NCBI RefSeq assembly: GCF_045679555.1 | Contig: NC_092091.1 | Location: 66,047,291 to 66,111,290 of the forward strand | Direction: 5' to 3' | Origin: Salvelinus alpinus | Lineage: Eukaryota > Chordata > Actinopteri > Salmoniformes > Salmonidae | Length of the DNA: 64,000 bases | Shown here: positions 3,213 through 58,597 of the stretch, piece by piece | How the letters are laid out: every line of letters begins with the position of its first letter | How positions within the stretch are numbered: the stretch's first letter is position 1 | The notes under the pieces: model-generated | Told to the model about the DNA's origin: nothing | The model's database searches: none | Seen by the model: only the letters and a program-made list of their open reading frames with translations | Program-made: the position numbers and the translations under genes

Positions 3213-3411
3213 GCGGGCTACCAGATCACCCAACAGAGGCTGCCCATCGTGGTGGACGGCACCCTGACCTAAAGTCACCTAGGGTGCCGTAAGAGGAACA
3301 CGGTGGTCACCAAGAGTGTCAGGATCAAACAGATCCAGTTAGAGCAGGACAGTGGCAAGAGCCTCCACGATGACTACAGGAGCCAGACCCTTATAGACCT
3401 CAACAGAGCAG
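3213..3411 (+). CDS. gatb: gatb exon A, with premature TAA
   Basis: The exon runs from acceptor CATCCAG to donor CAG|GTAGAT. It encodes [19 protein letters not shown], then TAA at codon 20 (3270-3272), then in the same frame [20 protein letters not shown] and on to DLNRAG. Other GatB proteins have an aromatic residue at the stop, so a single substitution in a Tyr codon explains it. The last 15 nt of the exon are repeated 28 more times downstream. Confidence 0.88.
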
Positions 3412-4643
3412 GTAGATGGAGTTTAGCTTCCCATCGGTGTACCTCAACAGAGCAGGTAGATGGAGTTTAGCTTCCCATCGGTGTACCTCAACAGAGCAGG
3501 TAGATGGAGTTTAGCTTCCCATCGGTGTACCTCAACAGAGCAGGTAGATGGAGTTTAGCTTCCCATCGGTGTACCTCAACAGAGCAGGTAGATGGAGTTT
3601 AGCTTCCCATCGGTGTACCTCAACAGAGCAGGTTGATGGAGTTTAGCTTCCCATCTGTGTACCTCAACAGAGCAGGTAGATGGAGTTTAGCTTCCCATCG
3701 GTGTACCTCAACAGAGCAGGTAGATGGAGTTTAGCTTCCCATCGGTGTACCTCAACAGAGCAGGTAGATGGAGTTTAGCTTCCCATCGGTGTACCTCAAC
3801 AGAGCAGGTTGATGGAGTTTAGCTTCCCATCTGTGTACCTCAACAGAGCAGGTAGATGGAGTTTAGCTTCCCATCGGTGTACCTCAACAGAGCAGGTAGA
3901 TGGAGTTTAGCTTCCCATCGGTGTACCTCAACAGAGCAGGTAGATGGAGTTTAGCTTCCCATCGGTGTACCTCAACAGAGCAGGTAGATGGAGTTTAGCT
4001 TCCCATCGGTGTACCTCAACAGAGCAGGTAGATGGAGTTTAGCTTCCCATCGGTGTACCTCAACAGAGCAGGTAGATGGAGTTTAGCTTCCCATCTGTGT
4101 ACCTCAACAGAGCAGGTAGATGGAGTTTAGCTTCCCATCGGTGTACCTCAACAGAGCAGGTAGATGGAGTTTAGCTTCCCATCGGTGTACCTCAACAGAG
4201 CAGGTAGATGGAGTTTAGCTTCCCATCTGTGTACCTCAACAGAGCAGGTAGATGGAGTTTAGCTTCCCATCGGTGTACCTCAACAGAGCAGGTAGATGGA
4301 GTTTAGCTTCCCATCGGTGTACCTCAACAGAGCAGGTAGATGGAGTTTAGCTTCCCATCGGTGTACCTCAACAGAGCAGGTAGATGGAGTTTAGCTTCCC
4401 ATCGGTGTACCTCAACAGAGCAGGTAGATGGAGTTTAGCTTCCCATCGGTGTACCTCAACAGAGCAGGTAGATGGAGTTTAGCTTCCCATCGGTGTACCT
4501 CAACAGAGCAGGGAGATGGAGTTTAGCTTCCCATCGGTGTACCTCAACAGAGCAGGTAGATGGAGTTTAGCTTCCCATCGGTGTACCTCAACAGAGCAGG
4601 GAGATGGAGTTTAGCTTCCCATCTGTGTACCTCAACAGAGCAG
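3397..4643 (+). repeat. Donor-spanning minisatellite 1 (44-nt unit, 29 copies of the exon end)
   Basis: Each unit starts with ACCTCAACAGAGCAG, the last 15 nt of gatb exon A, followed by GTAGATGG and 21 further intron nt. Starts at 3397, 3441 and so on to 4629 give exactly 28 steps of 44 nt, so there are 29 donor sites. Variants are few: T/G in ATCKGTG, and GGTTGATGG or GGGAGATGG after the donor. The last copy diverges after GTA (GTACCATAG), which suggests that the ancestral intron begins there. The unit is not a multiple of three and contains TAG in the exon frame. Confidence 0.95.
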
Positions 4644-4794
4644 GTACCATAGAGTTCAAACACTCATAGACTCCAAGAGGAGTCTACCACAGAGCTCCAA
4701 CTAGTATATACAGATCTAGATAGGATTTGGCTAGCCAGTCCCTGTTCTATGTAGGAATATGGGGAGTGTATGTAACATCTCTCTCTCCCTCCAG

Positions 4795-4917
4795 GCGTGG
4801 GTCTGATGGAGCTGGTGATGGAGCCAGACATGAGCTGTGGAGAGGAGGCAGCAGCAGCCGTCAGAGAGATGCAGCTCATACTGCAGGCTCTAGGGACCTG
4901 CCAGGGAAACATGGCTG
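4795..4917 (+). CDS. gatb: gatb exon B
   Basis: The exon lies between acceptor CCCTCCAG and donor GCTG|GTGGGG. It is 123 nt in phase 1-1 and encodes [18 protein letters not shown] and on to [12 protein letters not shown]. The following Glu codon is split with exon C. The exon is intact. Its last 17 nt form part of the 57-nt array that follows. Confidence 0.9.
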
Positions 4918-5460
4918 GTGGGGAGTCCTGCATTGGACACACACACTCACTGACACACCAGGGAAACATGGCTGGTGGGGAGTCCTGCATTGGACACACA
5001 CACTCACTGACACACCAGGGAAACATGGCTGGTGGGGAGGCCTGCATTGGACACACACACTCACTGACACACCAGGGAAACATGGCTGGTGGGGAGGCCT
5101 GCATTGGACACACACACTCACTGACACACCAGGGAAACATGGCTGGTGGGGAGGCCTGCATTGGACACACACACTCACTGACACACCAGGGAAACATGGC
5201 TGGTGGGGAGGCCTGCATTGGACACACACACTCACTGACACACCAGGGAAACATGGCTGGTGGGGAGGCCTGCATTGGACACACACACACTCACTAACAC
5301 ACCAGGGAAACATGGCTGGTGGGGAGGCCTGCATTGGACACACACACACACACACTCACTGACACACCAGGGAAACATGGCTGGTGGGGAGGCCTGCATT
5401 GGACACACACACACTCACTAACACACCAGAGAAACATGGCTGGTGGGGAGGCCAGTATTG
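4901..5460 (+). repeat. Donor-spanning minisatellite 2 (57-nt unit, 10 copies)
   Basis: Each unit contains CCAGGGAAACATGGCTG, the last 17 nt of gatb exon B, then donor GTGGGGAG and a CA-rich spacer. Starts step by exactly 57 nt from 4904 to 5246; the last three units are lengthened by extra CA. Because 57 is divisible by three, the exon frame stays open through about eight units, encoding repeats of [19 protein letters not shown], until about 5297. Use of a later donor would therefore add 19-residue blocks in frame. Confidence 0.95.
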
Positions 5461-5690
5461 GACACAGGGGCGCAATATGGGGGGAGTTAGAACGATTCTA
5501 AGGGCCTGTGACTGACAGGGACCCCCAAAAAATATTAGAACGTTAGGTTAAAAAATAAAAAAAAATAAACGTTTATTAACCTATCATTATTAATATAATA
5601 TTTTATTTACGATGTACTATTAAAACTAACGGTTTCTTTTTCTTTTCTTGTTTTTGGCAAAAAGTAAACATCCAGAGAGCCTCTGTATTG
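5461..5690. other. Intron core between two splice-site arrays
   Basis: This is the only non-repetitive part of the 1.4 kb intron between gatb exons B and C. It is AT-rich with no motif I recognise. Confidence 0.4.
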
Positions 5691-6345
5691 ACAGCTGTCT
5701 CATACCTTCTCTCTTTCTATAGAGGGCCAGCTGTCTCATACCTTCTCTCTTTCTATAGAGGGCCAGCTGTCTCATACCTTCTCTCTTTCTATAGAGGGCC
5801 AGCTGTCTCATACCTTCTCTCTTTCTATAGAGGGCCAGCTGTCTCATACCTTCTCTCTTGCTATAGAGGGCCAGCTGTCTCATACCTTCTCTCTTGCTAT
5901 AGAGGGCCAGCTGTCTCATACCTTCTCTCTTGCTATAGAGGGCCAGCTGTCTCATACTTTCTCCCTTGCTATAGAGGGCCAGCTGTCTCATACCTTATCT
6001 CTTCCTATAGAGGGCCAGCTGTTTCATACCTTATCTCTTGCTATAGAGGGCCAGCTGTTTCATACCTTCTGTCTTGCTATAGAGGGCCAGCTGTTTCATA
6101 CCTTCTCTCTTGCTATAGAGGACCAGCGGTCTCATACCTTCTGTCTTGCTATAGAGGGCCAGCTGTCTCATACCTTCTCTCTTGCTATAGAGGGCCAGCT
6201 GTTTCATACCTTCTCTCTTGCTATAGAGGACCAGCGGTCTCATACCTTCTGTCTTGCTATAGAGGGCCAGCTGTCTCATACCTTCTCTCTTCCTATAGAG
6301 GGCCAGCTGTCTCATACCTTCTCTCTTCCTATAGAGGGCCAGCTG
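5691..6345 (+). repeat. Acceptor-spanning minisatellite 3 (36-nt unit, 18 copies)
   Basis: The unit holds a pyrimidine tract, CTATAG, then AGGGCCAGCTG, the first 11 nt of gatb exon C. Eighteen copies run up to the exon, so there are about 18 candidate 3' splice sites. The unit is exactly 12 codons. In the exon C frame it reads [12 protein letters not shown] with no stop in any copy, so choice of an upstream acceptor would add 12-residue blocks in frame. This array and the 57-nt array close the two ends of one intron. Confidence 0.95.
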
Positions 6346-6448
6346 AGAGTGGATGCCAACGTGTCCGTCCACAGACCTGGGGATCCTTGGGGCATCAGGA
6401 CTGAGGTCAAGAACATCAACAGTGCCCGCAACCTGGCCAGGGCCATAG
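6335..6448 (+). CDS. gatb: gatb exon C
   Basis: The exon runs from the last acceptor of the 36-nt array (CTATAG|AGGGCC) to donor ATAG|GTGAGT, 114 nt. It encodes [19 protein letters not shown] and on to [12 protein letters not shown]. This is the conserved GatB stretch around RVDANxS and RTEVKNxNS. The exon is intact. Confidence 0.92.
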
Positions 6449-10563: not shown

Positions 10564-10872
10564 GCATGGAGAGAAGAGGGGGAGCGAGACAGGAGGGAGA
10601 GGAGAGGGGGAGCGAGACAGGAGGGAGAGGAGAGGGGGAGCGAGACAGGAGGGAGAGGAGAGGGGGAGCGAGACAGGAGGGAGAGGAGAGGGGGAGCGAG
10701 ACAGGAGGGAGAGGAGAGGGGGAGCGAGACAGGAGGGAGAGGAGAGGAGAGGGGGAGCGAGACAGGAGGGAGAGGAGAGGAGAGGGGGAGCGAGACAGGA
10801 GGGAGAGGAGAGGGGGAGCGAGACAGGAGGGAGAGAAGAGGGGGAGCGAGACAGGAGGGAGAGGAGAGGGGT
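10564..10872. repeat. Purine-rich minisatellite 4, ~28-nt unit, 10 copies
   Basis: GCGAGACAGGAGGGAGAGG recurs ten times, with an extra GAGGA in two units. The array is all purine on the + strand and starts 90 nt after the exon E donor, so unlike arrays 1-3 it contains no exon bases. Confidence 0.93.
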
Positions 10873-11398: not shown

Positions 11399-11587
11399 GT
11401 TCATGCCGGAGCCCAACCTCCTCTGATGGTGTACGAGGCGTGCTCTACAGCCCCCCCTGGTGTTGCCCCCAGCCAGGTGGTGGTTCTGGAGGAGGTGAGG
11501 GAGAGGCTGCCGGAGCTGCCCAGCGTCAGGAAGCAGAGGCTGGTGGAGACCTACGGCATCCTCCCCGAACACAGCTTCACCCTGGTG
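11399..11587 (+). CDS. gatb: gatb exon F, with frameshift
   Basis: The acceptor follows a C-rich tract (CCCTCCAG) and the donor is CTGGTG|GTGAGT. The exon opens RFMPEPNLL and then hits TGA at 11424-11426. One frame over it continues LMVYEACSTAPPG and on to RERLPELPSVRKQRL and PEHSFTLV. Family members have NLPPL at the break, so the simplest event is loss of 4 nt (or 1 nt plus a codon) in a CCTC run. The exon length (189) is one base short of the expected phase, which agrees. Confidence 0.85.
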
Positions 11588-11929
11588 GTGAGTGACTACT
11601 ACAGTATGTAGGTGTGTCTGTTAATGTCCAACTGAGCAAGTTAATTATAGGAGATGGTAGGTTTCTCACTCCATCTCTCTGGCTTTCATCTTCTGTCTTC
11701 CTGTCTGTCTCTCTCCCTCCCACTTTCTGCTCCTCCTCTCTCCCCCTCTTCCTTTATCTCTCCATTGTACTCTCTCCCTCACTGTCTCTCAATTTAAAAA
11801 CTACCCAAAGTAACCTATTCTTGCACAGCCAGTTACCCTGTCTGCACTTCTGCCTCTGTCCAGCAAGGCGCAGTAGATTGTGGTATATACAGTATTATTG
11901 AGTGTGTTTCATTGGGTCTCCTGTTGTAG

Positions 11930-12056
11930 AATGAGGACGGGCTGATGGACTACTTTGAGTCAAGGAGACCAAGGCTGGACCGAGAAAGGTGATTGGCTGG
12001 GTGATGAACGAGCTACAGGGCCTCCTCCATCAACAGAACCTGAGTGTCAGCCAGAG
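11930..12056 (+). CDS. gatb: gatb exon G, with frameshift
   Basis: Acceptor CTGTTGTAG, donor CAGAG|GTGAGA. The first frame gives NEDGLMDYFES and then out-of-frame codons to TGA at 11990. The other frame restores KETKAGPRKVIGWVMNE and LQGLLHQQNLSVSQ. GatB has VIKET after the FE/FF pair, so about 4 or 7 nt are missing near 11958-11962. The exon length is again one base short of the expected phase. Confidence 0.83.
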
Positions 12057-12929
12057 GTGAGACACTCAGTCGTCCTCTTCCTCATCCTCTTCCTCTGTGT
12101 CCTACTCTAGCCTCAATCATTCTCTTTCTCCTCTCCACCTCATCCCTATCATTCTTCCTCTACATCCCTCATCTGGTTTCGCCCTCTTCTCCCTCCCGAA
12201 CTCCTATCATGTGTCTCTCCTCCCCTTCCTCTGTTCTACTCTTTTCAGTCTTGCGTTGACTTCAAACCCCATGTTGAAGATCCTATCTCAGCATCCAACA
12301 TCTTGGCTAGACGGAGGCCTGAAATCGTTTCCATACTGGAAGCATAATTTATGTGCTTTTTCCCTGCGATGTTTCCTATCCATCTTCATGTGGATACCTT
12401 CCGGTATTACTATGGCAGGCCATGAATGTGAATAGAGAATACATCTGGGCAATAAGCTGAGTGTTTTGAGTTGTTTTTCTATAATACTGTTTTTATCCTA
12501 CACTCCAGACTGTTCTGAGACTGATCAAACAGAGTAAAGTATGATGTGTTTTGTTTTATGTCTTTGTCTGAGAACTAGTGGACGGGTGGGTGTTTGTGTG
12601 CCTTTTTGTCGTTTTGAAAAAAGTGAGAGTGGATGTTGACTATGTGTGGATTCACGTGTTTGTTGTTTGTTTAGCCATATTTCCGTTCATAACTCAGTCA
12701 GTGTGTATGTGACTGTGTCTCTGGCCCAGTGTGTGTCTGACTCGGGGATTCGTGACAGCACTGATGATCATGTGCCCTGTAGGTGGCAATGGGCTGTCAC
12801 AGAGAGAGACGGGGCCAAATAGCCTCTCATTATAAGCACAGTGACTCCGGGGTAGATAGACACCGTCACACTGTCACACAGGAGAGGATAGACTGGGTCT
12901 AATGACATCTCCTGTGCCTTCTCTCTCTT

Positions 12930-30900: not shown

Positions 30901-33900
30901 CCGGATCTGAAAAGGGAGGTTGACACATGTGCTGAGCAGGTGCTTCAGCCTGCAGACTCTCTCCCGTACCTGGTGTGTTGATGTGGCTGACCAGCGTGTC
31001 CAGGATGTGGACGTTACCTGGGTGTGTCGATGCGGCTGACCAGCATGTCCAGGATGTGGACGTTACCTGGAAGGGTGTGTCGATGCGGCTGACCAGCGTG
31101 TCCAGGAAGTGGACGTTACCTGGGTGTGTCGATGCGGCTGACCAGCATGTCCAGGATGTGGACGTTACCTGGAAGGGTGTGTCGATGCGGCTGACCAGCG
31201 TGTCCAGGAAGTGGACGTTACCTGGTGTGTCGATGCGGCTGACCAGCGTGTCCAGGATGTGGACGTTACCTGGTGTGTTGATGTGGCTGACCAGCGTGTC
31301 CAGGAAGTGGACGTTACCTGGTGTGTCGATGCGGCTGACCAGCGTGTCCAGGAAGTGGACGTTACCTGGTGTGTCGATGCGGCTGACCAGCGTGTCCAGG
31401 ATGTGGACGTTACCTGGTGTGTCGATGCGGCTGACCAGCGTGTCCAGGAAGTGGACGTTACCTGGTGTGTCGATGCGGCTGACCAGCGTGTCCAGGATGT
31501 GGACGTTACCTGGGTGTGTCGATGCGGCTGACCAGCGTGTCCAGGATGTGGACGTTACCTGGTGTGTTGATGTGGCTGACCAGCGTGTCCAGGAAGTGGA
31601 CGTTACCTGGTGTGTCGATGCGGCTGACCAGCGTGTCCAGGAAGTGGACGTTACCTGGTGTGTCGATGCGGCTGACCAGCGTGTCCAGGATGTGGACGTT
31701 ACCTGGTGTGTCGATGCGGCTGACCAGCGTGTCCAGGAAGTGGACGTTACCTGGTGTGTCGATGCGGCTGACCAGCGTGTCCAGGATGTGGACGTTACCT
31801 GGTGTGTCGATGCGGCTGACCAGCATGTCCAGGATGTGGACGTTACCTGGAAGGGTGTGTTGATGCGGCTGACCAGCGTGTCCAGGAAGTGGACGTTACC
31901 TGGAAGGGTGTGTTGATGTGGCTGACCAGCGTGTCCAGGATGTGGACGTTACCTGGTGTGTCGATGCGGCTGACCAGCGTGTCCAGGATGTGGACGTTAC
32001 CTGGGTGTGTCGATGCGGCTGACCAGCGTGTCCAGGATGTGGACGTTACCTGGTGTGTTGATGTGGCTGACCAGCGTGTCCAGGAAGTGGACGTTACCTG
32101 GTGTGTCGATGCGGCTGACCAGCGTGTCCAGGAAGTGGACGTTACCTGGTGTGTCGATGCGGCTGACCAGCGTGTCCAGGATGTGGACGTTACCTGGTGT
32201 GTCGATGCGGCTGACCAGCATGTCCAGGATGTGGACGTTACCTGGAAGGGTGTGTTGATGCGGCTGACCAGCGTGTCCAGGATGTGGACGTTACCTGGGT
32301 GTGTTGATGCGGCTGACCAGCGTGTCCAGGATGTGGACGTTACCTGGGTGTGTTGATGCGGCTGACCAGCGTGTCCAGGATGTGGACGTTACCTGGAAGG
32401 GTGTGTTGATGCGGCTGACCAGCGTGTCCAGGATGTGGACGTTCTCGTGGCGGTGGAGGAGGATGAAGGAGAGGAAGGTCTGCAGCAGGACCGGCTCTGA
32501 CACCGACCGCACAAACAGGTCCAGATAGGCCGTGGTAGTCATCACCTCCTCCAGGGTCAGCTAGAGAGAAACACACAACCATCAGTAGGCTGGATACAAA
32601 TACGCTGCATCCTTCCTTCCAATCTTCCTGGAAGTAGTGACTGATCTGACATTGATCTGGAATGGTGGATGTAATACTGTGCGATCCATGCTGTGTTTAT
32701 ACTGACCTTGTGGAGGGCCGGTGCCAACACAGGCACCAGAAAGCCATTGTAGATGTAGCTGACCAGCTGGTCCCTGATGCTGGGGTGAGCCACCTGAATG
32801 ACTGCATTGCAGAACTCCAGTGAGTTGAGGAACTGGACCAGGGTGGGCATATGTAGCCAGTCCTCTCTGTGGAGGCAGTGCCACTCCTCACTGGGCACCT
32901 CCAGCTTGGTGGGCAGAGACGAGTAGAGACCGCTCAGCCCCGTGGCCAGCACCTAGAGGAGGGGGAGAGAGGAGAGAGAGACACATTTAGTGGAACCCCT
33001 TCAAGTAGGCTATTGCTTACTTACACCATATAAACTGTACACTGTGGTCTGGTATCACGAGTACGCAACCAAGTTGCTGGGAATAACTAGGATCTGATAT
33101 TATTGTGTTTCCTTTCATCTTTGCATGAGTTTCCTTTTGTGCATGTGAAAGATAACTATCCATGACTTTGCACAAAGGGCTCAAATGCCTTGGCAGGATA
33201 GAGCGATGCATCTGAACCAGGGAACTGAATGGGCCTCTGTTCTGTCTTCCTGGTACAGGTATATCCCGGTCTCTCCATTGGCTTATACAGACAGTAGAAA
33301 GCTAGGCAGGTAATCCTGTGACAAAGAGGTATTGTAGCCTGCTCCTGCTGTGCAATTACGTCAAATACTATTACATAACTGGTTATCATCCATGCAGTCT
33401 GTACAGTCTCTCCACGGTACAGGTGAGATTGAAAAAAATTCTGTTGACACTGCCAAGCTAGATAGTCAGTTCATAACGGCTTAACAGAAGTGTTTGATAG
33501 TGAAGATACTAGTCGCAACAGGACAAGTGTTCTGTGAGGGATACTGTAAAAACTTTCAGATGTGCTGACTGGTGCGTTGAGGATTACACTTTAGAGAGTT
33601 ATAGCTAATGATTTACAGTATATATTAAATATGAGCATTGAGCAACATACATTAATTATGAGTGGGGAAGTGTGTGGCACAAATGACTTTTATGCATTGA
33701 TGTGTTCACTCTGGCTTCACTCTTAGTGGTTTTTATGGCGCAGATATAAATGATGTTTTCCCCTTCCATGCTTTGAGCTGTACTGTATGTTATAAATCTA
33801 CCAAGTCCCTTCTCTTCATGGTCTCACACGCAAACGACTAGTGTGTGAATCTATGCATGTGATAGGTCAGCTTCTTTGAGACCTTAACGCACAAGAAGCC

Positions 33901-43404: not shown

Positions 43405-44208
43405 AAAATAGAGCCCAGCAACATACTGTCAAGTCTGAAATAGAGCCCAGCAGCATACTGTCAAGTCTGAAATAGAGCCCAGCAGCATACTGTCAAGTCT
43501 GAAATAGAGCCCAGCAACACACTGTCAAGTCTGAAATAGAGCCCAGCAACACACTGTCAAGTCTGAAATAGAGCCCAGCAACACACTGTCAAGTCTGAAA
43601 TAGAGCCCAGCAGCATACTGTCAAGTCTGAAATAGAGCCCAGCAACACACTGTCAAGTCTGAAATAGAGCCCAGCAACACACTGTCAAGTCTGAAATAGA
43701 GCCCAGCAACACACTGTCAAGTCTGAAATAGAGCCCAGCAACACACTGTCAAGTCTGAAATAGAGCCCAGATACACACTGTCAAGTCTGAAATAGAGCCC
43801 AGCAACACACTGTCAAGTCTGAAATAGAGCCCAGCAACACACTGTCAAGTCTGAAATAGAGCCCAGCAACACACTATCAAGTCTGAAATAGAGCCCAGCA
43901 ACATACTGTCAAGTCTGAAATAGAGCCCAGCAACATACTGTCAAGTCTGAAATAGAGCCCAGCAACATACTGTCAAGTCTGAAATAGAGCCCAGCAACAT
44001 ACTGTCAAGTCTGAAAGAGCCCAGCAACATACTGTCAAGTCTGAAATAGAGCCCAGCAACATACTGTCAAGTCTGAAATAGAGCCCAGCAACATACTGTC
44101 AAGCCTGAAATAGAGCCCAGCAACACACTGTCAAGTCTGAAATAGAGCCCAGCAACATACTGTCAAGTCTGAAATAGAGCCCAGCAACATACTGTCAAGT
44201 CTGAAATA
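43405..44208. repeat. 32-nt minisatellite, about 25 copies
   Basis: The unit is AATAGAGCCCAGCAACACAC followed by TGTCAAGTCTGA, stepping by 32 nt with CACAC/CATAC and AACA/AGCA variants. One unit lacks four bases (near 44016). It runs straight into the next array. Confidence 0.95.
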
Positions 44209-45838
44209 GGGCACTACTTCTATAAAGAGGAGCACCAGGGAGATGGGGCACTACTTCTATAAAGAGGAACACCAAGGAGATGGGGCACTACTTCTATAAA
44301 GAGGAGCACCAAGGAGATGGGGCACCACTTCTATAAAGAGGAGCACCAAGGAGATGGGGCACCACTTCTATAAAGAGGAGCACCAGGGAGATGGGGCACC
44401 ACTTCTATAAAGAGGAGCACCAGGGAGATGGGGCACCACTTCTATAAAGAGGAGCACCAGGGAGATGGGGCACCACTTCTATAAAGAGGAGCACCAGGGA
44501 GATGGGGCACCACTTCTATAAAGAGGAGCACCAAGGAGATGGGGCACCACTTCTATAAAGAGGAGCACCAAGGAGATGGGGCACCACTTCTATAAAGAGG
44601 GGCACCACTTCTATAAAGAGGAGCACCAAGGAGATGGGGCACCACTTCTATAAAAGAGGAGCACCAAGGAGATGGGGCACCACTTCTATAAAAGAGGAGC
44701 ACCAAGGAGATGGGGCACCACTTCTATAAAGAGGGGCACCACTTCTATAAAGAGGAGCACCAAGGAGATGGGGCACCACTTCTATAAAAGAGGAGCACCA
44801 AGGAGATGGGGCACCACTTCTATAAAGAGGAGCACCAAGGAGATGGGGCACCACTTCTATAAAGAGGGGCACCACTTCTATAAAGAGGAGCACCAAGGAG
44901 ATGGGGCACCACTTCTATAAAAGAGGAGCACCAAGGAGATGGGGCACCACTTCTATATAAGAGGAGCACCAGGGAGATGGGGCACCACTTCTATAAAAGA
45001 GGAGCACCAAGGAGATGGGGCACCACTTCTATAAAAGAGGAGCACCAAGGAGATGGGGCACCACTTCTATAAAGAGGAGCACCAGGGAGATGGGGCACCA
45101 CTTCTATATAAGAGGAGCACCAGGGAGATGGAGCACCACTTCTATAAAAGAGGAGCACCAAGGAGATGGGGCACCACTTCTATAAAGAGGAGCACCAGGG
45201 AGATGGGGCACCACTTCTATATAAGAGGAGCACCAGGGAGATGGAGCACCACTTCTATAAAGAGGAGCACCAGGGAGATGGGGCACCACTTCTATATAAG
45301 AGGAGCACCAGGGAGATGGAGCACCACTTCTATAAAGAGGAGCACCAGGGAGATGGGGCACCACTTCTATATAAGAGGAGCACCAGGGAGATGGAGCACC
45401 ACTTCTATAAAGAGGAGCACCAAGGAGATGGGGCACCACTTCTATATAAGAGGAGCACCAGGGAGATGGAGCACCACTTCTATAAAGAGGAGCACCAAGG
45501 AGATGGGGCACCACTTCTATAAAGAGGAGCACCAGGGAGATGGGGCACCACTTCTATATAAGAGGAGCACCAGGGAGATGGGGCACCACTTCTATAAAGA
45601 GGAGCACCAGGGAGATGGAGCACCACTTCTATAAAAGAGGAGCACCAGGGAGATGGAGCACCACTTCTATAAAAGAGGAGCACCAAGGAGATGGGGCACC
45701 ACTTCTATAAAGAGGAGCACCAAGGAGATGGGGCACCACTTCTATAAAAGAGGAGCACCAAGGAGATAGGGCACCACTTCTATAAAAGAGGAGCACCAAG
45801 GAGATAGGGCACCACTTCTATAAAGAGGAGCACCATGG
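44209..45838. repeat. 37/38-nt minisatellite, about 43 copies
   Basis: The unit is GAGGAGCACCAAGGAGATGG followed by GGCACCACTTCTATAAA. Variants are AAGG/AGGG, TATAAAGA/TATAAAAGA/TATATAAGA and GGGGC/GGAGC. Three copies have a nested short duplication GAGGGGCACCACTTCTATAA. It begins where the 32-nt array ends. Confidence 0.95.
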
Positions 45839-48148
45839 AGATGGTGCTTTGCTTTCACACAATGAATGTAGTCACCTTTATTATTTTCGATGCCTGTGTA
45901 AACAACTCAATTTATAATGTCTCTGGGAGAGCATGTGACCCAGAAAAGTGTGTGTGTGTCTGTGTGTTTGTGCGTGCCTCTTTCCCAGGGGGGGCTAAAA
46001 CCCAATCTCTCCTGTACACAACCCTGCATGCCTCTCCACTCAGTTTCACAGTCATTATCCAATTATACCAATCAGGTAATTATGTTAATGTGTTGCTTAC
46101 ACGTCTCTGGGCTGGATAAACAGAAAAGCTCTGAAGAAGTCTTGAAGTCAGCATCTCTCTTTGAAAACAGGAGTGTTGACTAAGGACCCCTGTTGCGAAC
46201 CTCAGCCAGACACACACACACTTTGGAGGCAGTTGAACAGAGTTGAAAAGGGAATTAAAGGCATGCTGCTTTAAGCAGGGAGCGCTGTAAACATCCAGGC
46301 GTTTTTTTTCTGTTTTGGAGCGAGTCAGTGACTAATCTGGATCAATAATGAATATATAGTCTCATTGATCATGAGGACGTATGTAGTAGCACACTACTTG
46401 TGGCGCATTTATTCTAAAAGGAGGAATGAGGTGAAATGGAACAGACCTCCTGCTGTGATCGGGCACAGTGAAGAACCCCTGTTGGGATCAGAGACCTGAG
46501 TCACTGATGAAAGATTACGATGTAGCCTAGATGGTGATGAAACTGAATGATGACAACTGCAAGGGATGATGATGATCTCATTCTGTCATTATCTTTCTCC
46601 ATCCCCACTCTCACAAGTACAAAGGAAAGACAAACCTCCACACTGCTCTTGCTCATTACCCACTCCTACCGGCACACATAGAGGACATGAATCCACTACA
46701 GGAGCTTCCACCGTTTCAAAACACATCCGTTACCTAGCAGCACTATCGAATCTAGTTCCATCCCCCTCTCGCCCACAGACCTAGTGCCATCCTCTAACCA
46801 TGGTTTCTACCATTCATGACTAGATGTTATTTCTGAAGGGTTTGGGTCAGAGTACAGGGGTGAGATGATTTCCCCTTGGGGTGGAGGTTAACTCCTCAGA
46901 GAGCTTTGTGTGAGTGAGGGAATACGGAACAGCAACACCAGGAGAACATCAAACCTGCTTTGAAGCCTAGTAGAGATGATAAGGAACATGGAGAATTGAG
47001 AGGAAGAAATAGGCCAACTGTAGCAGTGTTTTAAAGCCATACCACCACAGTCAAACTAGACTGATGATAAATTAAATATAGCAGCATACCACCATATTGA
47101 TTTTGCTAAGGAAGCGCAGGGGGAAAGGGAAAGAGAGATGGAGAGAATGAGAGAGAACAAGAGATACAGAGAGAGAGAATGACAGAATGAGATAGAGAGA
47201 ATGAGAGAGCGAGAGATACAGAGAGAGAGAGAGAGAGAGAGAGAAAGAGGGACAGAGAAGAGATCAACAACACATTCCCCATGCTACTGTTAAATTCATT
47301 CTAAGAACCTGTTAGACTAGAGGACACTGACCTGCTGACAGTGTTCTCTGTCAACATTGTGTTAGTTTCGCCTTGGGTTTAGAAACATCACTGCATTGAC
47401 ATTTGCCTATGTCCCCTTGACATAACAATGCTATGACACATAGCATGTATAGCATAGGCCTACCAGTCACTGAATGTGTATAAGTGTCTCCTGAGTAATG
47501 AAAGTAGCCAAGTACAAAAGACACAGTAGTACCACAGTAGCCTACATCCCTATTCAACCAGTGCATGCCATGTACGTCTACACCAGACAGCGTCCCCAAA
47601 ATGGCCGTGGCTGGCATCTCCACCAGGTTCCAGACCCCCTGCTGTTAAAATAATATTCTCCAGGTTACAGCAAACGTGTTGGGCTCATCAGTCTGTGTAC
47701 AGGGAATTAGGAGAGGTAGCTTCTAAACAATACGATTTCTACACAGAGAGAAGAATAACTGAATGATACACTATAGCTCCACCTGAAACTGGAATGGTTT
47801 GAACTGAAGTTCAACACTGAATTCTACCAGACCAAAAGACCATGCATCTTTGTAAAGTTGGTTACTGGTTGACTATACACAGAGCAACAAGTCCTGGTCT
47901 GGGTTAGGTAGAGAGACCTAGCTAACTGCCAAGGTAAATACATTGAGATAAAGCTATAGAAAGTGAAGTGAGGTCTATTTTGTTATGTCATCCTTTGAAC
48001 GTGTTATTCAATGGATGGGCTGGGAGGGAGAGAGAGAGGCTTCACAGGTAACAAAAGATGAAGAGCTTTTCACAGGAGATAACACAGACAGAGCCACCGA
48101 TGACAGGATAGAATGTCTGCCTAAGGACAGAGGCTTTGTAAGCATCAT

Positions 48149-56499: not shown

Positions 56500-58121
56500 A
56501 TTTTGCTTTTATGAGATATTTGCATTCAGAAATGCAAGCTGCCTCACTTTCGAGTGGCTGATGTGGTTTCTTCTTTCAGTAATTATTTGTTTCGTTTTCG
56601 AGAAGACCCTCTCAGAGGGAACGGAAGTGGCAACTATGCAGATTCTCCCGGTCATGACTTTAGTAAGCCTTGTTCTTCCACCAGCTCAGAGGATCTGCAG
56701 ATCTTTGGAGGAGGGGATCCTCCAAATAGGATCGGACCTCCATTATGGCATCTGCTGAGGGATTCCTTCGTGCTGCATCCCCAGTTGCTCTCTCGTCAAA
56801 CAGCAGACGTTTGTGGCACTACTGCTGGTGCTTCTGCTCCATCGGATCCCTCTTCTTCCTGTTGCCCTGGTGCCTGAGCCAGCTGACTGCTGGGGCTGTC
56901 CCTCCCTGCTGCTGAGGTTATTCTTTGAAGAGCCTCATCAATCGCTCTGGCATCACTGAAGGCTAACTTCTTAAACCTGGGGTCAAGTGCAGCGGTTTCT
57001 GAAAGCACGTGATTATATTCCATTCTGTGGAACTTTCTGTCCATTGATGAACATAGGGTGTCCATCAACTCTGTCACATGTCCTATGGTTACATTTACTT
57101 CTCTCTGGCGGCTGGCTGTGATTCGCTGCAGACCCTTACACAGGAGTATCATTTTTGAGGCTGTCACATAGCTGAAAAGAGAGAACAGTAACTTATTAGT
57201 TCAGGTTCATGTTTTGTCTACTGATACTACATTCTCATCTACTGCTCATATACATATATAATACTAGATTAAATAATAACTGCTTACTGTACCTCTCTCC
57301 ACTGATCTCCACAGTGACCTGCTCAAAGGGTTCCAGGACTCTGCACACCTCCTCTGCCACCTCCCATTCCTCTTGGGTCAGAGCATCAACAGGTGCATTG
57401 ACAATGGCCAGGGTAGAGATGATGGCATCCTTTGACTCAAGAAACCGTTTCAACATATATAATGACCACCTTGTAGTGCAGTCTTGTTTAGGCCTCAGCT
57501 CAGGCATCCCAATCTGGTGTTGTGTAGACTTTAGTTTTTCAGAACCTACTGTGCTCCTGTGGAAGTATTCCACAGCTGCTTTCACTTTGTCCACGGTGGG
57601 CTTCATCACCTTCAAAGCATCTCTTACAATCAGGTTGACATTTAAACATTTTCATGGCTTTGGTTATGTTAGCTGCATTGTCGCTAACACAACAGACCAC
57701 TTTTCCATCTACTTGCCATACTCAACAGTTCCTCTGCCAAGATCTCTGAGGTGTGTCTTTCGCTGAACTCAAAGCAGTCCAGAAGACAGCTAGACATCAA
57801 AAAATCTTCAATGAAGTGACATGTAACCGACATTTAAGAAGTGGTTACCCTTGATGTCCAGCAGTCAGCGGTAAGGCAAACTGCAGTAGCTTTTTGGACT
57901 CTTTCCCACACTGAAGCCTGTGTGCTCTCGTACAGTTGTGGAATAAGTGATTTTGAAAGGGTTTTCCTGCTTGGAATTGTGTACATTGGATTTAGACTAT
58001 TGCTATAATTTCTAAAACCTCTGTCCTCCACAATCAAAAATGGCTGGAAATCGGTGGCAATCATTTTAGCCAATGCAATATCAATTTGGCCTTGTTTTGC
58101 TACAGACATAGACTTTGGCAT
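56500..58121 (-). pseudogene. hAT transposase (ZBED-like), broken
   Basis: The minus-strand pieces are in order. Near 57834-58121: DIALAKMIATDFQPFLIVED, KTLSKSLIPQLYE and CLTADCWTSR (hAT motif before the first catalytic region). Near 57235-57615: KQDCTTRWSLYMLKRFLESK and EEWEVAEEVCRVLEPFEQVT. Near 56796-57167: HVLSETAALDPRFKKLAFSD. Finally, near 56500-56650, the dimerisation tail VATSVPSERVFSKTKQIITE and VRQLAFLNANIS. Stops and frame changes separate the blocks, and the N-terminal BED finger is not visible. The element cannot encode an active enzyme. Confidence 0.85.
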
Positions 58122-58130
58122 AAACTGGTG

Positions 58131-58597
58131 TAACGGATGTGAAATGGCTAGCTAGTTAGCGGTGGTGCGCGCTAATAGCGTTTCAATCGGTTACGTCACT
58201 CGCTTTGAGACCTTGAAGTAGTGGTTCCCATTGCTCTGCAAGGGCCGTGGCCTTTGTGGAGCGATGGGTAACGACGCCTCGTGGGTGACTGTTGTTGATG
58301 TGTGCAGAGGGTCCCTGGTTCGAGCCCGGGTATGGGCGAGGGGACGGACTAAAGTTATACTGTTACATTGATGCTGTTGACCCGGATCACTGGTTGCTGC
58401 GGGAAAGGGGGGTAAGTGTAACGGATGTGAAATGGCTAGCTAGTTAGCGGTGGTGTGCGCTAATAGCGTTTCAATCGGTTACTTCACTCGCTTTGAGACC
58501 TTGAAGTAGTGGTTCCCCTTTCTCTGCAAGGGCCGCGGCTTTTGTGGAGCGAACAATGCTTCGTGGGTGACTGTTGTTGATGTGTGCAGATTGGCTC
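58131..58597 (+). repeat. Dispersed repeat, one full (288 nt) and one truncated copy in tandem
   Basis: Both copies start TAACGGATGTGAAATGGCTA (58131 and 58419). The first contains CCCTGGTTCGAGCCCGGGTA, a B-box-like motif, suggesting tRNA-derived ancestry. The second stops after GTTGATGTGTGCAGA. They are about 95% alike. Both are nested in the hAT element. Confidence 0.75.

Follow-up and report, generated by a model that had tools for sequence, protein, structure and literature searches.

Minisatellites spanning exon-intron junctions of GATB and FHIP1A in the char Salvelinus alpinus

Tandem repeats that span the boundary between exon and intron have been described in amphioxus under the name of 'mirages'. 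The name was introduced for the Adh3 gene, and further examples come from the globin genes BflGb6 and BflGb9, troponin C and PGBD5 (PMC3087553, PMC3902484). The units measure 10-160 bp, many of them contain AG/GT, the arrays are unstable in length, and splicing is reported to be undisturbed. Somatic instability has been described for the Adh3 mirage (PMC3087553, PMC3902484). The first-pass annotation of the DNA studied here knew of no named class for arrays of this kind; the mirages of amphioxus are such a class (PMC3087553).

Two other systems are related. Human internal tandem repeats at exon-intron boundaries, located in segmental duplications, have an average of 4 units of 30 bp and are reported to make novel introns (PMC2812944). 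Tandem duplication of exon segments bearing AGGT has been linked to intron gain (PMC3443670). The printed mirages that we found come from a few amphioxus genes only. Among the titles and starts of abstracts listed by our literature search, mostly from outside the subscription journals, we recognised no report of such arrays in salmonids or char. What is new here is the vertebrate host, the copy numbers, the presence of four arrays in one window that are common to two gene copies, and the recurrence of such arrays elsewhere in this genome, in other genes.

Four arrays at exon edges of GATB and FHIP1A

The window is the whole stretch of 64,000 nucleotides that was analysed (contig C6, positions 66047291-66111290). 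Tandem arrays and their copy numbers were located by TRF, and exon edges were placed by translation and fish homologs. The plus-strand gene is GATB, which encodes the mitochondrial glutamyl-tRNA(Gln) amidotransferase subunit B, and salmonid homologs align through its exon borders. Exon A of GATB (3213..3411, 199 nt) ends in array 1 (3397..4646), with 28.4 copies of a 44-nt unit composed of the final 15 exon nucleotides, GT and 27 intron nucleotides. Exon B (4795..4917, 123 nt), the skipping of which keeps the frame, ends in array 2 (4901..5466), with 9.7 copies of a 57-nt unit that joins the final 17 exon nucleotides to the GT donor and intron. Exon C (6335..6448, 114 nt) begins within array 3 (5692..6345), with 18.2 copies of a 36-nt unit comprising the polypyrimidine tract, AG and the initial 11 exon nucleotides. 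The units at these three consecutive exon edges had been read from the sequence as holding 15, 17 and 11 exon nucleotides plus GT or AG, and the TRF arrays and the exon edges at 3411, 4917 and 6335 agree with this.

The splice-site motif is present in 27 of the 29 copies of array 1 (the other two carry GG), in all 10 copies of array 2 and, as TATAG, in 18 of 18 copies of array 3. Array 1 breaks off at its far end after the exon end plus GTA, and the unit of array 3 is flanked by CAGCTG direct repeats. A single unit of array 2 is in frame, open and encodes 19 amino acids, and reading through array 1 meets stops in all frames. Diverged unit variants are interspersed inside the window arrays.

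A fourth junction array had been proposed for the neighbouring gene on the minus strand. It is confirmed, and the gene is FHIP1A. Array 4 (30967..32443, minus strand) consists of 30 copies (TRF) of a 48-53-nt unit, which is the final 50 nt of an FHIP1A exon plus GTA, and the array overlaps the exon by 51 nt. GT(A) is kept in every copy among those listed. Salmonid homologs place this exon, intact, at 32393..32560 on the minus strand; it ends in DTLVSRINTPFQ at 32393. Across the junction, the homologs read INTPFQ/LGTV free of any insert. The 12 coding exons of FHIP1A placed in the window are open, with 97% identity to the S. alpinus protein P0121, which is likely the product of a second copy on contig C41. 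P0121 spans the array-bearing junction without an insert, which means that splicing in its gene model starts from the donor next to the exon.

Other arrays of the window lie off the exons. The intronic array previously noted as not touching any exon (10568-10871 by TRF) indeed touches none, and for the arrays starting at 10568, 25264, 43406, 44209 and 50831 there is no overlap with any placed coding exon, coding exons being the only ones considered. Two unrelated minisatellites (units of 32 and 37-38 nt) stand head to tail at 43406-45844 without a gap. Broken open reading frames at about 56500-58150 on the minus strand resemble a hAT-type transposase.

The GATB copy of the window carries several lesions. 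Exon A has an in-frame TAA at 3270-3272, where Tyr stands in every one of the 16 aligned fish proteins that are not gapped at this position. Homolog alignment reveals a frameshift in PEPNLPPLMV (PEPN-LPPLMV) of exon F (11399..11588, plus strand) and a second frameshift in exon G (11930-12057, plus strand), and one Ser codon is lost. The S. alpinus GATB protein P0001, labelled 'LOW QUALITY PROTEIN', has a gap at the position of the TAA and is without the same residues as the window copy; two aligned residues differ from the window. The stop, two frameshifts and one lost codon give GATB on C6 the appearance of a duplicate in decay.

We also notice that exon B is absent from the UniRef GATB models of O. 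mykiss, O. tshawytscha, O. kisutch and S. trutta (P0010, P0012, P0015, P0016, P0104), and exon C from the Hucho model P0011. The exons skipped in these salmonid models are those flanked by arrays in char.

A second gene copy and a second species

Among the best candidates scored, the sole other place for the array-1 unit is contig C41. GATB exons A-C are intact there, with TAC at the position of the window's TAA. Arrays are present on C41 at all four window junctions, with 5.4 copies in array 1, 71 in array 2, about 60 in array 3 and 7.8 in the FHIP1A array, that is, 5, 71, 60 and 8 copies versus 28, 10, 18 and 30 in the window. The aligned flanking and intron stretches of C6 and C41 diverge by 4-9%, which is above the level expected of alleles. 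The two copies look like paralogs, and they probably descend from the salmonid genome doubling. For arrays 1 and 4, both ends sit at identical places in C6 and C41. The same junctions and ends in both copies, combined with differing counts, indicate that the position of an array is fixed and its copy number drifts.

Array 3 of C41 splits into 51 pieces, of which 45 carry CTATAG, four carry CTACAG and two are flanks; seven pieces exceed one unit, and AG is kept in all unit ends listed. The FHIP1A array shows a pattern of its own. On C41 (piece L031, 1719-2121), the full CC(C/T)TTCCAG is found in the four exon-nearest copies, and the far ones are shorter by 4-5 nt. In the window (30967-32443), full and shortened copies are mixed, and the exon-nearest one is full.

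The GATB protein of S. namaycush, P0017, contains exactly one array-2 unit (57 nt) translated in frame, which places array 2 in a second species. The P0017 model uses an array-2 copy other than the exon-nearest one. P0017 has SHLGC in common with the window copy but Tyr at the stop position, and the model ends early, past the start of exon I. It is probably the ortholog of the window GATB copy, minus the stop.

Junction arrays in other pieces of the genome

We sampled the same genome at round coordinates, in two sets of 20 and 8 pieces that measure 10 kb each, 280 kb altogether, of which piece L002 includes 2,696 N. Arrays with a unit of 15 nt or more and 4 or more copies were counted, giving 53 arrays in 45 blocks. 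These minisatellites occupy 101,488 of the 280,000 sampled bases (36%), and L006, L013 and L022 are each one array throughout. Exons were spotted by eye at the printed block ends, with 250 nt or more printed for 70 of the 90 flanks, so misses are likely.

A strict rule, which demands that the TRF block cross a junction and include at least 8 exon nucleotides, leaves 3 of the 45 blocks as junction arrays. The first, in L007, lies at the donor CATCAG/GTAAAAG with 12 exon nucleotides and 32 copies counted. The second, L011b, includes 16 exon nucleotides at the donor of an EGF exon; GTAA is lost in 9 of its 11 copies, and GT is left only in the two end copies. The third, L028a, covers the acceptor of the last ARHGEF4 exon with 9 exon nucleotides in about 34 copies. 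Two more blocks come close. In L028b, the first 36 nt of another ARHGEF4 exon recur about 8 times together with the intron end; the final copy, set at a wider spacing some 64 nt past the TRF block, is the real exon. L011a, with a 37-nt unit on the acceptor side, adjoins an EGF exon with 0-1 exon nucleotides. Donor junctions are thus represented by arrays 1, 2 and 4, L007 and L011b, and acceptor junctions by array 3, L028a, L028b and the abutting L011a.

The sampled exons are backed by Pfam matches to EGF, RhoGEF/PH and DUF4693. We take the gene in L011, which has the EGF match, to be stabilin-like. Structures of ARHGEF4 span one sampled junction, and the O. tshawytscha ARHGEF4 protein (98% identity) crosses both ARHGEF4 junctions insert-free. 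In a search of unit consensuses that used no annotation and covered the first 200 kb plus the window, the strong donor NAGGTRAG was found only in L007, and the arrays are too few to decide on this basis.

In the L028 array at 3837-5423 (minus strand), most internal copies (26 of 34 pieces) carry CGGTGACCC, with the Ala that other salmonids have, and the start of the real exon carries TGGTGACCC, with Val. These intronic copies may preserve an older exon sequence.

Origin of the arrays and comparison with known systems

We consider it probable that the arrays are junction-spanning minisatellites, or mirages, which arose where a short stretch straddling an exon edge was duplicated in tandem and which are predicted to be harmless, with the exon-nearest copy being spliced and the rest removed with the intron. 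This reading builds on the unit content, the exon edges, the second gene copy with the same four junctions and the similar arrays in three other genes, all of which were observed directly. In the proposed mechanism, a local duplication across the exon edge, accompanied either by a 3-6-nt match between the edges of the unit or by a short filler, would give the first two copies, and unequal exchange or slippage would then alter the copy number. The spliceosome would use the exon-proximal site, as in the P0121 gene model but not in that of P0017, and the other copies would leave with the intron. Duplications lying wholly within exons would be purged, which would make those at exon edges stand out. 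No function of the arrays is implied.

The ends of the units and arrays bear on the founding step. By our own reading, direct repeats stand at the unit edges, namely CAGCTG in array 3, CAGGG in array 2, ACC in array 1 and ACG in array 4. Meanwhile, 4 of the 5 donor arrays (array 1, array 4, L007 and L011b) finish at the far end in a partial copy that stops at the exon end plus GT or GTA, and unique intron follows. Repair of staggered breaks gives local duplication with short filler. The partial far ends appear to fit duplication with filler better than plain slippage, and the microhomology reading of the donor arrays is ambiguous. Clean slippage between direct repeats, which suits array 3 well and the donor arrays only ambiguously, was rejected as the sole origin. 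Intron gain was rejected as well: the exon borders are gapless in fish homologs and the intron positions are old.

The same far ends could be viewed as the trace of a duplication process directed to junctions, with breakage or template switching at the exon ends themselves, so that founders begin at the splice site. The far end lies 2-3 nt past the copied exon end in the four donor arrays just named, and the suggestive excess of junction arrays over random placement, described below, points the same way. However, array 2 stops 24 nt in, the acceptor arrays have assorted end points, and the common GT(A) could merely mirror the donor consensus; we regard such a process as unlikely. Duplication of DNA across exon borders had been suggested as one possible process at this locus, and the data fit either biased seeding or biased survival. 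The excess, if real, would reflect survival together with a seeding preference that is unexplained.

It might also be asked whether chance alone accounts for the arrays, as some arrays must hit exon edges in a genome so rich in minisatellites, and the window was picked as odd. In the window, 4 junction overlaps are seen and 0.29 expected (P 2e-4), a post hoc value for a window selected for its oddity, and a window at this P is expected somewhere among the roughly 37,000 such windows of 2.37 Gb. The 36% of sampled bases in arrays favours chance too. In contrast, among the 45 blocks of the pieces at round coordinates, 3 cases satisfy the strict rule where 0.57 would be expected and 5 the loose one where 0.76 would be, and 5 of the 6 blocks in L007, L011 and L028 lie at exon edges, these pieces having been noticed for that reason. 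The expectations depend on the number of junctions. An ab initio exon finder, used only to scale this number, made 9 calls in the window, where 22 exons are known and 8 of the calls are right, and another 17 across the 28 pieces, giving a crude estimate of 84 junctions in the pieces and an alternative of 168. With 84 junctions, P is 0.02 for the three strict blocks; adding L028b makes four (P 0.003 under the strict expectation or 0.0075 for any overlap), and adding L011a makes five, with P 0.001 for any contact. With 168 junctions, P rises to 0.11 for the three strict blocks and 0.02 for the five loose ones. The five blocks represent three genes and are possibly non-independent. The excess over random placement is suggestive. 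In line with the earlier view that chance is hard to credit, such arrays recur in this genome at a rate that looks above random (3 of 45 blocks versus 0.57). Chance alone strikes us as a rather improbable explanation.

Selection for spare splice sites, by which arrays are kept since each copy is an extra donor or acceptor, is very unlikely. The retention of GT or AG in 27/29, 10/10 and 18/18 copies of arrays 1 to 3 speaks for it, but near-identical young copies retain any motif unselected. The first-pass annotation had proposed, as one option, that arrays are tolerated only if every copy has a usable splice site; this is not supported, in view of the two GG copies of array 1, the loss of GT from 9 of the 11 copies of L011b and the persistence of arrays in the window's GATB with its stop codon and its two frameshifts. 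Splice-site selection on every copy is thus rejected, as GT-less copies exist. What is needed seems to be just one working splice site beside the exon. A simple donor score gave 6.8, 6.4, 7.4 and 7.8 for the exon-nearest copies of arrays 1, 2, 4 and L007, and 4.0, 6.4, 8.3 and 6.1 for the far ends; the strongest donor is thus not in every case the one closest to the exon, which is the first met. The idea that the arrays are tolerated only through the pseudogene status of GATB was also rejected: exons A-C of C41 are intact with the same three arrays, and the placed exons of FHIP1A and ARHGEF4 are open.

False expansion of repeats during assembly is the least credible explanation, for although copy numbers of long arrays are often wrong, C6 and C41 have the same units at the same junctions, the S. 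namaycush protein has one array-2 unit, and diverged variants are interspersed in the arrays.

Beyond the reading of the arrays as mirages formed by short tandem duplication, the minisatellite-rich char genome may hold many mirages. A bolder proposal, which we put forward as doubtful, is that minisatellites in char arise preferentially at splice junctions, from founders seeded no more than a few bases away from where the exon ends, with tens of thousands of junction arrays genome-wide, as scaled from three to five per 280 kb. If it were true, mirages would reflect a mutation process that is common in vertebrates and would keep supplying new exons, new introns and length-variable splice sites. 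If many vertebrate junctions have mirages, the origin of exon-edge duplications, the choice of the spliceosome among dozens of identical sites and the rate of conversion into new exon or intron sequence all become directly testable. The GATB-FHIP1A pair offers a ready comparison, in which a decayed GATB and one that looks intact in exons A-C have arrays in common.

Like the duplications of AGGT-bearing segments, those proposed for char would be short and tandem and would take along a splice-like motif, and splicing could mask them; unlike in the former, the char junctions match other fish proteins, with no new intron. The human boundary repeats, which change splicing and protein length, resemble the char minisatellites in that the latter lie at boundaries of duplicated paralogs with counts differing between C6 and C41, whereas in char the old introns stay in place.

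The likeness to the amphioxus mirages is closest. In char, too, the units are tandem and span the exon-intron boundary, at the four window junctions, in L007, L011b and L028a and, by unit content, in L028b, and both donor and acceptor boundaries are involved. Splicing is reported to be undisturbed in amphioxus; among the char gene models, P0121 has no insert and P0017 has one unit. As for length, which is unstable between alleles in amphioxus mirages, the counts of C6 and C41 differ strongly, but in copies that are paralog-like rather than allelic. Unlike amphioxus, the host is a vertebrate, and the copies reach about 71, compared with 3-6 units in BflGb6. The char arrays differ further in occupying consecutive junctions of one gene, in being common to two gene copies, and in recurring in further genes of one genome.
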